This document shows, in pieces, positions 23,989-26,353 of a DNA stretch of 64,000 nt (position 1 is the first letter of the stretch; each line of letters opens with the position of its first letter). Under the pieces are notes generated by a model, which saw only the letters and a list, made by a program, of their open reading frames with translations, made no database searches and was not told the DNA's origin. The translations under genes were made by a program, and so were the position numbers. The DNA comes from Stenotrophomonas sp. ASS1 (GTDB lineage Bacteria; Pseudomonadota; Gammaproteobacteria; Xanthomonadales; Xanthomonadaceae). The stretch is from positions 1,322,001-1,386,000 of the forward strand of contig NZ_CP031167.1 in assembly GCF_004346925.1 (NCBI RefSeq), read 5' to 3'.

Positions 23989-24861
23989 ATGAATGCGGTC
24001 CCACAGGCGGCCGAGCGCGACTGGCGCACGCCGCTGGAATTGACCCTGCTGGGCGCCATCTGGGGCTGCTCGTTCCTGTTCATGCGGGTGGCGGTGCCGT
24101 CGTTCGGCCCGTTCGCGCTGGTCGAGGTGCGGCTGGTGCTGGGCGCGCTGGTGCTGCTGCCGTTCCTGTGGCGCGCCCGCGCGCAGTTCCCGCCGCGGCG
24201 CTGGCTGTGGCTGGCACCGATCGGCCTGATCAACTCGGCGCTGCCGTTCGTGCTGTTCGCCTATGCCGCCGAACAGGCACCGGCCGCGATCGGTGCGATC
24301 TGCAATGCGATGACCGTGCTGTTCGCCGCGCTGATCGCCTTCCTGTTCTTCGGCGAGAAGATCGGCATGCGCCGTGCGGGCGCGCTGCTGGTCGGCTTCG
24401 CCGGCGTGGTGGTGCTGGCCACTGCCAAGGTCTCCGGCCTGAGCATCGGCACCGCGGTGCTGGCCGGTGCGGCGGCTTCGTTGCTGTACGGCCTGGGCGT
24501 GAACCTGGTGAAGCGGCACATGACCGGCCTGCCGTCGGCGGCCGCGGCGGCGGCAACGCTGTCGTGTGCCTCGCTGTGGATGCTGCCGATGGCGGTCAGC
24601 CATTGGCCGCAGGCGGCGATTCCGGCCAAGGCCTGGGGCGCAGCGATCGCGCTTGGCGTGGCCTGCACCGGGCTGGCGTTCCTGATGTTCTATCGTTTGA
24701 TCGGCCGTATCGGCCCGTCGCGTGCGTCGACCGTGACCTATCTGATTCCGCTGTTCGGCGCTGCGTTCGCGTGGTTGTTCCTGGGTGAGCCGGTGACGCT
24801 GCAGATGCTGATTGCGGGTGCGTTGATTCTGGGTAGCGTGGCGGTGAGTCAGAAGGGTTGA
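23989..24861 (+). CDS. EamA/DMT family exporter next to LysR regulator
   Basis: A 290-residue protein with ten TM helices in two EamA repeats ('LLGAIWGCSFLFMRVAVPSF' and 'YRLIGRIGPSRASTVTYLIP'). Such exporters move amino acids or other small metabolites, but the substrate is unknown. It is the divergent partner of the LysR gene, a common regulator-target arrangement. It ends 9 bp before a large palindrome. Confidence 0.87.
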   Translation: MNAVPQAAERDWRTPLELTLLGAIWGCSFLFMRVAVPSFGPFALVEVRLVLGALVLLPFLWRARAQFPPRRWLWLAPIGLINSALPFVLFAYAAEQAPAAIGAICNAMTVLFAALIAFLFFGEKIGMRRAGALLVGFAGVVVLATAKVSGLSIGTAVLAGAAASLLYGLGVNLVKRHMTGLPSAAAAAATLSCASLWMLPMAVSHWPQAAIPAKAWGAAIALGVACTGLAFLMFYRLIGRIGPSRASTVTYLIPLFGAAFAWLFLGEPVTLQMLIAGALILGSVAVSQKG

Positions 24862-25133
24862 TGCGTTGGCGTTTTGCGCGTGGCGCGTGCTGAAGGTGCT
24901 TCATCGTTCATGGGCGTCACTTTTCTTTTCGCGCGAAAAGAAAAGTAACCAAAAGAAACGCGCCGCCAGGTCGCGAGCCGGTGCTGCGCACCGGTACCCT
25001 GCGCTCCTCGGCCCGTCGAGGGACGGCGCGGGAACTCGCTGCGCTCAGACACCCGCGCCTCTTCGCCCTCGCCGGACCTGCGGTGCTCGGCTCGCTCAAG
25101 GCGGACCCAGATCAAAGGCCACAGCTGCACCCA

Positions 25134-25157
25134 GTAGATCCACGCCATGCGTGGATG
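25134..25157 (+). repeat. SMAG unit at palindrome centre
   Basis: A GTAG-headed ATCCACGCC/GCGTGGAT unit located at the symmetry centre of the large palindrome. It is the same subtype as the copies near 18.0, 19.3 and 30.7 kb. Confidence 0.85.
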
Positions 25158-25244
25158 CCTTTGCCGTTGATCTTGACCTTCCAGTCCGCCTTGAGCGAGC
25201 CGAGCATCGCAGGGGAATCAGGGGCGAAGAGGCGGCGATGTCCT

Positions 25245-25270
25245 GTAGAGCCGACTGCTAGTCGGCTGAC
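25245..25270 (+). repeat. GTAG-headed REP of GCCGACT type, one arm only
   Basis: GTAG head then an 8-bp stem AGCCGACT/AGTCGGCT. It replaces the corresponding part of the left arm of the large palindrome, so it appears to have been inserted or substituted after the palindrome formed. Confidence 0.75.
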
Positions 25271-25450
25271 TTCCTCGCGCCGTCCCCTGATTCACCGAGA
25301 AGCGCAGGGGACCGGCGTGCGAAGCACGGCGGCTCGCGACCTGGCGGCGCGTTTCTTTTGGTTACTTTTCTTTTCGCGCGAAAAGAAAAGTAACGCCCAT
25401 GAACGATGAAGCACCTTCAGCACGCGCCACGCGCAGAACCCGCGACGGCG

Positions 25451-26353
25451 TTACTTCACCGGCACCGGAATACTGCAGAGATCGATATGCCCCGCCGGGC
25501 GCTTGTAGAAATCATCCACGCGATTGCGACGCGCTTCGACAGTATCGGCAAACGTCTTCGAGTCGGTACGCAGCACCTGGATCGACGTGCGCTCGGCCAC
25601 CGGCACATCGCTGGCACGGCGGATAGACACGATCGGCGTGCGCAGCTTCGGGTCGGCATAGAAACCCATCGGCGCCGGGCCGCGCGGGGTCGCGCTGAGC
25701 AGCTCCATGCCCTTCAGCACGCGGCCGACCAGGGTGATGTTGCGGTCCAGCTGGCGCGGCGACTGGCCGGTCACCACGTACAGTTCGGCACCGATGCTGC
25801 TGTCTTCCTCGTTGCTGCGGCCAGCGCCGAGCATGCCGTAGCAGTGCGCCAGCCAGGCCTTGCCGGCCTGCGGGTCCTGGCCGACCGGGAAGCCGTCGAC
25901 GAAACCGGTCTGCGCGGCCCAGCCATCGCGATCCGGCAGCACGCTGACCTTCAGGCCGGCGCTGGCGCGTTCGAATTCGGCCGGCAGCTTGCGCGCGGCG
26001 CTGCCGAACGGCTTGGCCTTGGCCGCGTCATCGGCATCGGCATCGCCGAACTGCACCACGAAGTTGTCCTGCGAGCGGTAGATGCTGGTGCCGTCCCAGA
26101 AGTGCTCGCGGGCGAAGGTCTGGATGTTGGCGACATGGCGCGGGGCGAACTGCGGCGCCAGCTCGATGATCACCCGCCCGGCCGGCAGGTCCATGTACAG
26201 CAGGTTGGCCGGGTCCGGGGTGCGCCAGTCGCTGGCCGCCGAAGCATCAAGAATCTGCTGCGGACTGCGGTAGGGCGTGGCCGCGCCGGCCAGGACGGGC
26301 AGCAGGCAGGACAGGGCGAGGGCGGTCAGGGCAAGGCGACGGCGGTGCGGCAT
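25451..26353 (-). CDS. Exported cyclophilin-type peptidyl-prolyl isomerase
   Basis: A 300-residue protein with a signal peptide (about 1-24, 'VLAGAATPY') and one cyclophilin-like domain. Visible family features are '[20 protein letters not shown]', '[20 protein letters not shown]' and '[14 protein letters not shown]'. The usual F-H-R active-site phrase reads '[13 protein letters not shown]', so the arginine may be kept but other residues differ, and isomerase strength is uncertain. It would act in the periplasm. It is divergent from the PadR regulator gene. Confidence 0.82.

Follow-up and report, generated by a model that had tools for sequence, protein, structure and literature searches.

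GTAG REPs (SMAG) and their dimers, the BIMEs and REPINs, are dispersed palindromic non-coding repeats that often occur as opposite-orientation dimers, and according to PMC3733652 they are placed mostly in convergent and unidirectional gaps. The element described below resembles them in being dispersed, palindromic, non-coding and dimeric. A further point of reference is the TwoAYGGAY RNA (RF01731), which was listed as a probable RNA without an assigned function (PMC2864571) and was suggested to bind CsrA (PMC4333381).

Architecture of the palindrome

The window, a stretch of 64,000 nucleotides, was taken from the complete 4.56-Mb genome of Stenotrophomonas sp. ASS1, a member of the Stenotrophomonas maltophilia complex, and the region is 91–94% identical to S. 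maltophilia PC315. A nested palindrome of 569 bp (24871–25439) fills the gap between two converging genes, for an EamA-family transporter on the left (23989–24861, plus strand; Pfam PF00892, E 2e-40) and for a cyclophilin-type peptidyl-prolyl isomerase on the right (25451–26353, minus strand; Pfam PF00160, E 5e-21). A preliminary description had reported this arrangement, with ends lying 9 and 11 bp from the two stop codons, and its account of the letters was reproduced throughout. The outer arms (24871–24980 and 25330–25439) are reverse complementary at 108 of 110 positions, with mismatches at 24874 and 24918. The self-palindrome of the right arm (25361–25394) is perfect across 34 bases, that of the left arm (24916–24949) carries one C/T change, and similarity runs inward in one block of 59 bp (81%) and another of 45 bp (78%). 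The extra REP that had been assigned to one arm was located at 25245–25267, and a further GTAG-type REP, beyond the one previously noted, was found at the palindrome centre (25134–25157); both read on the plus strand.

The single-strand fold of the palindrome was computed at -458 kcal/mol, compared with -232 ± 7 kcal/mol for shuffled sequences (z = -33), and the hairpin core was absent from all shuffled windows used as a control for chance. The palindrome is not a chance product. A coding element was considered and rejected, as the open reading frames inside the palindrome had no Pfam or NCBIfam match; the element is a real, non-coding composite repeat.

The composite is built from two structured units arranged tail to tail around a REP-bearing spacer. 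A unit measures about 205 bp and comprises a self-palindromic hairpin of 30–34 bp followed by a branched stem. Units open with a TTACTTTTC hairpin, the sequence of which is AACCAAAAGAAACG or AACCAAAGAAACG, and the branched stem of Stenotrophomonas units bears a conserved loop, AACTCGCTNCGCTCARACA. Two stem types were distinguished, CGAGGG/CCCTCG and GAATCAGGGG/CCCCTGATTC, in which both sides change together. Unit A (24910–25112, plus strand; HMM match at 24911–25114) has the stem type CGAGGG...CCCTCG, shares 90–96% identity with four to five single units located at other places in the genome, and has the left-arm self-palindrome as its 34-bp hairpin (24916–24949, plus strand; one mismatch). 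The inverted unit B (25178–25400, minus strand), likewise matched by the HMM, has the stem type GAATCAGGGG...CCCCTGATTC and the perfect 34-bp palindrome as its hairpin (25361–25394, minus strand), with the REP at 25245–25267 standing in place of its conserved loop. The 79-bp spacer between the tails (25106–25184) contains the central GTAG-type REP, and the spacers of other pairs hold the same REP type. Since three independent pair sites have homologous spacers, the pair is one element. The left outer flank (24871–24909) and the right outer flank that mirrors it (25401–25439), about 39 bp per arm, belong to the inverted arms and lie mostly outside the repeated unit; they are largely site-specific apart from a short GTTCATGGGCG stretch.

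Two variants of the unit were observed in other loci. At L029 (genome G017), L098, L100, L103, L105 and L127, the hairpin loop of the unit contains another inserted palindrome, about 100 bp long (GATGGCGCACATCCATGTGCGCCACCC...GCACGAGCAA), and the hairpin arms are kept. At four loci of more distant Stenotrophomonas (L114, L115, L116 and L118), units or hairpins are paired in head-to-head orientation with the hairpins adjacent, and the tails are followed by GCAACA-type simple repeats.

Copies and gene context

The proposal that the palindrome is a dispersed element was borne out. A search of the source genome with the outer arm returned at least six further copies, and a search with the whole unit returned at least 13 matches at no fewer than ten sites, one match being partial; relatives had up to 11 unit matches among the matches listed. 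Arms are thus present beyond the window site, and the interior is conserved at other copies, as in the single units that closely match unit A. Tail-to-tail pairs were found at three independent convergent sites, namely eamA/ppi, suhB/htpX and a response regulator/cytochrome b561 gap, with gene names taken from translations. The pair spacers of about 80 bp share a mean identity of 0.71–0.81 between sites, against 0.50 for shuffled spacers (both orientations).

Within the source genome, nine of ten sites among the matches listed are convergent gaps, compared with 6 of 44 gene pairs in the window (binomial P 2e-7). All 34 called tail-to-tail pair loci of the species complex were also convergent according to gene calls from a simple composition-based script; each orthologue was counted on its own, and the 34 represent about three orthologous sites rather than as many independent ones. 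The hairpin ends of the composite are those nearest the stop codons. The composite is dispersed to about ten sites in the source genome, nearly all of them convergent gaps. In other genera, 4 of 65 lay in divergent gaps, against 40 of 189, and orientation relative to the upstream gene varied, with 43 sense and 32 antisense. The idea that units follow genes in the sense orientation was dropped as evidence, being a trivial outcome of convergent placement.

Variation at orthologous sites

The eamA/ppi site was compared across nine species. Six of them carry allele X in one arm (TTTTCGCGCG-like hairpin, ACGCGCCGCC) and allele Y in the other (TTTGTACGC hairpin, ACGTTCCGCC), and the two arms agree at 88–92 of about 105 positions. 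Allele X occupies the left arm in four of these species and the right arm in the other two; inversion has therefore exchanged the arms. The source genome has X in both arms (104 matches, two mismatches), and the right arm is a mosaic in G022 and G017. Gene conversion, one of three explanations offered in the preliminary description for the near-identical arms, is supported by these orthologues, most species having two different arm alleles and the source genome one of them twice. On the aligned sequences, the near-identity is best read as lineage-specific conversion in which Y would have been overwritten by X, which is the simplest account. Selection for a perfect outer stem, the second explanation, found no support, given the lower agreement of the arms elsewhere, and neither did recent formation, as many species share the element at this site.

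Orthologous sites were empty at L032, L034 and L042 and held a remnant at L036, so the element is dispensable between eamA and ppi. A single-gene tree with weak support suggests an old gain and several losses. In the suhB–htpX gap of G022 (L304), the left flank, a hairpin and the right flank were left as one palindrome; as a self-palindrome is a direct and an inverted repeat at once, this form is the one expected of a deletion between the two hairpins. Taken together, the orthologous sites display what conversion, inversion, collapse and loss have left behind.

Two other rearrangements were seen. In G035 (L309), the suhB–htpX gap lacks the units and retains most of the spacer, flanked by two inverted REPs, as though another repeat had taken the place of the arms. 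At eamA/ppi in G005 (L030), an insertion-sequence-like stretch separates or disrupts the units.

Fold and covariation

An alignment of 43 units showed standard pairs in 97% of cells. Changes on both sides of a pair were found in 184 cells, compared with 63 in shuffles that disregard the relatedness of units, and covariation was 0.317, against at most 0.080 when partners were slid, which abolished the signal. The number of further pair types in the same 43 units showed no excess over shuffles. The stems thus display the compensatory changes sought in a structured RNA, a pattern that templating at the DNA level could equally give. As G–U intermediates are few in the unit stems, much of the covariation may stem from arm-to-arm templating rather than from selection on RNA.

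Occurrence beyond the genus

A search for the exact hairpin 23-mer CAAAGAAAAGTAACCAAAAGAAA returned at least 120 stretches. Taxa among the matches listed included Xanthomonas, Dyella, Lysobacter, Luteimonas, Pseudoxanthomonas and Frateuria and, further afield, Burkholderia, Silvimonas, Aggregatibacter, Desulfobacterales, Selenomonadales MAGs and others, where MAG assignments can be wrong; a few matches, such as those in A+T-rich genomes, are probably due to chance. The scan fixed only the 3' arm of the hairpin, and a complementary 5' arm with at most two mismatches was present in 101 of 110 distinct instances among the matches listed, whereas the best shuffled control had four mismatches.

A covariance model built from the Stenotrophomonas interior alone, with the hairpin left out, gave 25 matches at E < 0.01 (E-values being rough) in 99 of the 23-mer loci. 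Twenty-four of the 25 lay directly behind a same-strand hairpin, 20 as judged by the motif test and four, with variant hairpins, by eye. The branched fold was thereby often recovered at loci chosen only by the hairpin 23-mer, in Xanthomonas, Silvimonas, Polaromonas and Desulfobacterales. Some elements outside the genus form tail-to-tail pairs, a Polaromonas MAG (L189) providing one example. Aggregatibacter and similar loci present the loop on unrelated, A+T-rich paired stems. Within the family, the interior model recognised copies in 11 of 60 genomes (counting the source genome), with up to 22 per genome, and the exact hairpin was present in 11 of 398 sampled genomes of the phylum, against none for the backward control.

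The hairpin alone, as opposed to the unit, was found in large replicons of Burkholderia and Paraburkholderia, in a few others and in two IMG/VR contigs; phage records contained none. One large replicon of Paraburkholderia caribensis (NZ_CP012748.1; L300) yielded at least 40 pieces matching the hairpin query, so some Burkholderiaceae may hold many copies. In Burkholderia seminalis (L207), the arms of a tail-to-tail pair reach about 100 bp beyond the hairpins, and both hairpins are abutted by Rfam Bp1_684 matches.

Origin and function

The function of the unit family is one that we infer. The reading adopted, to which we give about an even chance, is that the composite is kept in convergent gaps through a role at the 3' ends of RNA, while its two ends recombine with or template each other. 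Transcripts extending past either stop codon would fold the unit into a stable 3' structure, which could shield the mRNA end and curb read-through into the converging gene, as has been proposed for REP/BIME repeats; such 3'-end protection would explain why the element persists in convergent gaps. As each end is self-palindromic, the two ends are inverted and direct repeats of each other, and homologous recombination or templating between them may have made the forms with an overwritten arm, with flipped arms or interior, and with a collapsed interior, judging by the products. An RNA role is opposed by the suhB–htpX site, where the unit lies beyond ordinary terminators and so would be little transcribed, and by several related species that do without the element at eamA/ppi and suhB–htpX with no visible harm.

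The two-way transcription terminator of the converging genes that was originally suggested has been weakened and now appears improbable. The position between the stop codons and the very strong fold would suit it, and the eamA/ppi gap shows no other terminator, which leaves room for a local role there; however, the element lacks a U-tract, a terminator scan found none within it, and close relatives have no element at eamA/ppi. As read from the sequences, the suhB and htpX genes possess canonical hairpin-plus-T terminators with or without the element, which lies between the two; as these terminators stand outside the element and are kept in species lacking it, a terminator role is not required there. 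Of the earlier interpretation, dispersal and conversion thus stood, selection on the outer stem and recent formation found no support, and the terminator idea was weakened. Binding of CsrA/RsmA, as proposed for TwoAYGGAY (PMC4333381), is very doubtful: although elements built to the same plan carry TwoAYGGAY matches on their opposite strand, the window copy gave no such match, and its loop on the TwoAYGGAY strand (TGTCTGAGCGCAGCGAGTT) lacks GGA.

The element might instead be, above all, a mobile repeat of a non-autonomous, REPIN- or MITE-like kind, the composites of which move and are merely tolerated in convergent gaps, a possibility that we rate as substantial though short of even. It would account for entire composites with homologous spacers at three sites, the 13 or more units per genome, presence or absence among close species, the avoidance of divergent gaps in other genera (the 4 of 65 against 40 of 189 given above) and the patchy occurrence over distant taxa. 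It fits less well with the conservation of sites across species, with comparisons to empty sites that show neither target duplication nor a clean junction (gaps rewritten by REPs blur the junctions) and with the lack of an adjacent transposase or of a match to the unit among 72,556 records of plasmids and 50,697 of phages; no mobilising enzyme was found for the element. Unit number did not track RAYT number in 37 genomes (rho 0.27, P 0.11; units among the matches listed), with two genomes having units and no RAYT match and 13 having RAYTs and no units among the matches listed. None of 33 sampled RAYT loci (the three Y1-transposase genes of the source genome and 30 from relatives) carries the unit, and a RAYT/TIRYT origin was rejected on these grounds. 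The conversion and inversion products directly observed, together with stems that swap block-wise and have almost no G–U intermediates, would also suit functionless pairing, in which inverted copies template each other in replication or repair and stems stay complementary by mutation alone. We consider this unlikely, as single units without a nearby inverted partner retain their stems, and distant loci, including those of Aggregatibacter, share the loop and hairpin on sequence-unrelated stems, so that more than self-templating is needed. REPIN-like, non-autonomous mobility is plausible as a route of spread, and we lean towards a 3'-end RNA role combined with such spread over mere tolerance of a mobile repeat, the evidence being common to both.

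More broadly, we propose tentatively, and with somewhat less than even confidence, that the hairpin-led branched unit, often tail to tail, may be one hitherto undescribed family of structured elements that extends over Gammaproteobacteria, Burkholderiales among them, and into other groups. Fragments of its opposite strand would then have been annotated as TwoAYGGAY and as one or more sRNA families of Aggregatibacter, and the conserved hairpin and loop would share a common molecular partner, protein or RNA. If true, several orphan RNA annotations become pieces of one widespread element, and the search for a partner becomes concrete, directed at an invariant hairpin and an equally invariant 19-nt loop carried by stems that change freely. 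The orthologous series, in which a long natural palindrome is seen converted, inverted and collapsed, offers a good system for studying how bacteria tolerate and homogenise palindromes.

Comparison with known repeat and RNA families

The literature search returned no description of the unit family, and the motif was not printed in a relevant context. An Rfam scan of the window at family thresholds found no known RNA family, the weak matches being chance miRNA models only, and TwoAYGGAY had no match in the window, nor at E <= 1 around the element. Riboswitch matches in the 23-mer loci lie outside the element. Three TwoAYGGAY matches were obtained elsewhere (two at L177 and one at L208), on the strand opposite the hairpin-first reading of elements that share the hairpin and the plan; unlike that RNA, the Stenotrophomonas unit has the conserved AACTCGCTNCGCTCARACA loop rather than two AYGGAY hairpins. 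The AaHKsRNA22 family (RF02902, Aggregatibacter sRNA 22) overlaps the L203 element, also on the opposite strand. The overlapped copy shares hairpin and loop with the unit but has AT-rich stems of unrelated sequence, and the model spans part of the element only. At the fourth stem position of the hairpin 5' arm, C was found in 49 and T in 53 of 107 instances among the matches listed; this C/T alternation gives C–A on one strand and G–U on the other, a hint in favour of the strand opposite the hairpin-first reading.

The TIRs that border TIRYT genes of S. maltophilia (Di Nocera et al. 2013, PMC3733652), as represented by the inverted repeats at the 33 sampled RAYT loci, differ from the unit in sequence, an example being GGGGTCAGATCCCTTTCGC. 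Self-complementary GGGGTCAGATCCCTTTCGC repeats flank RAYT-type genes at L135, L137 and L141 and probably correspond to the TIRs that Di Nocera et al. described.

The window element itself includes two GTAG-type REPs, and of its parts only these small inserted repeats are REPs. A GTAG REP (SMAG) measures 20–40 bp, is tagged with GTAG at one end and belongs to a large family, whereas the unit measures about 205 bp, is branched, has no GTAG start, occupies about ten sites and flanked a RAYT gene at 0 of the 33 sampled loci. In common with BIME and REPIN dimers, the composite has opposite-orientation units, here around a homologous spacer of about 80 bp at three independent sites, and is dispersed as a whole; unlike them, it shows no adjacency to RAYT genes and no significant relation to their copy number. 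As a kind, therefore, and despite lacking the defining marks of a GTAG REP and the association with RAYT genes, the composite works like a very large BIME or REPIN.
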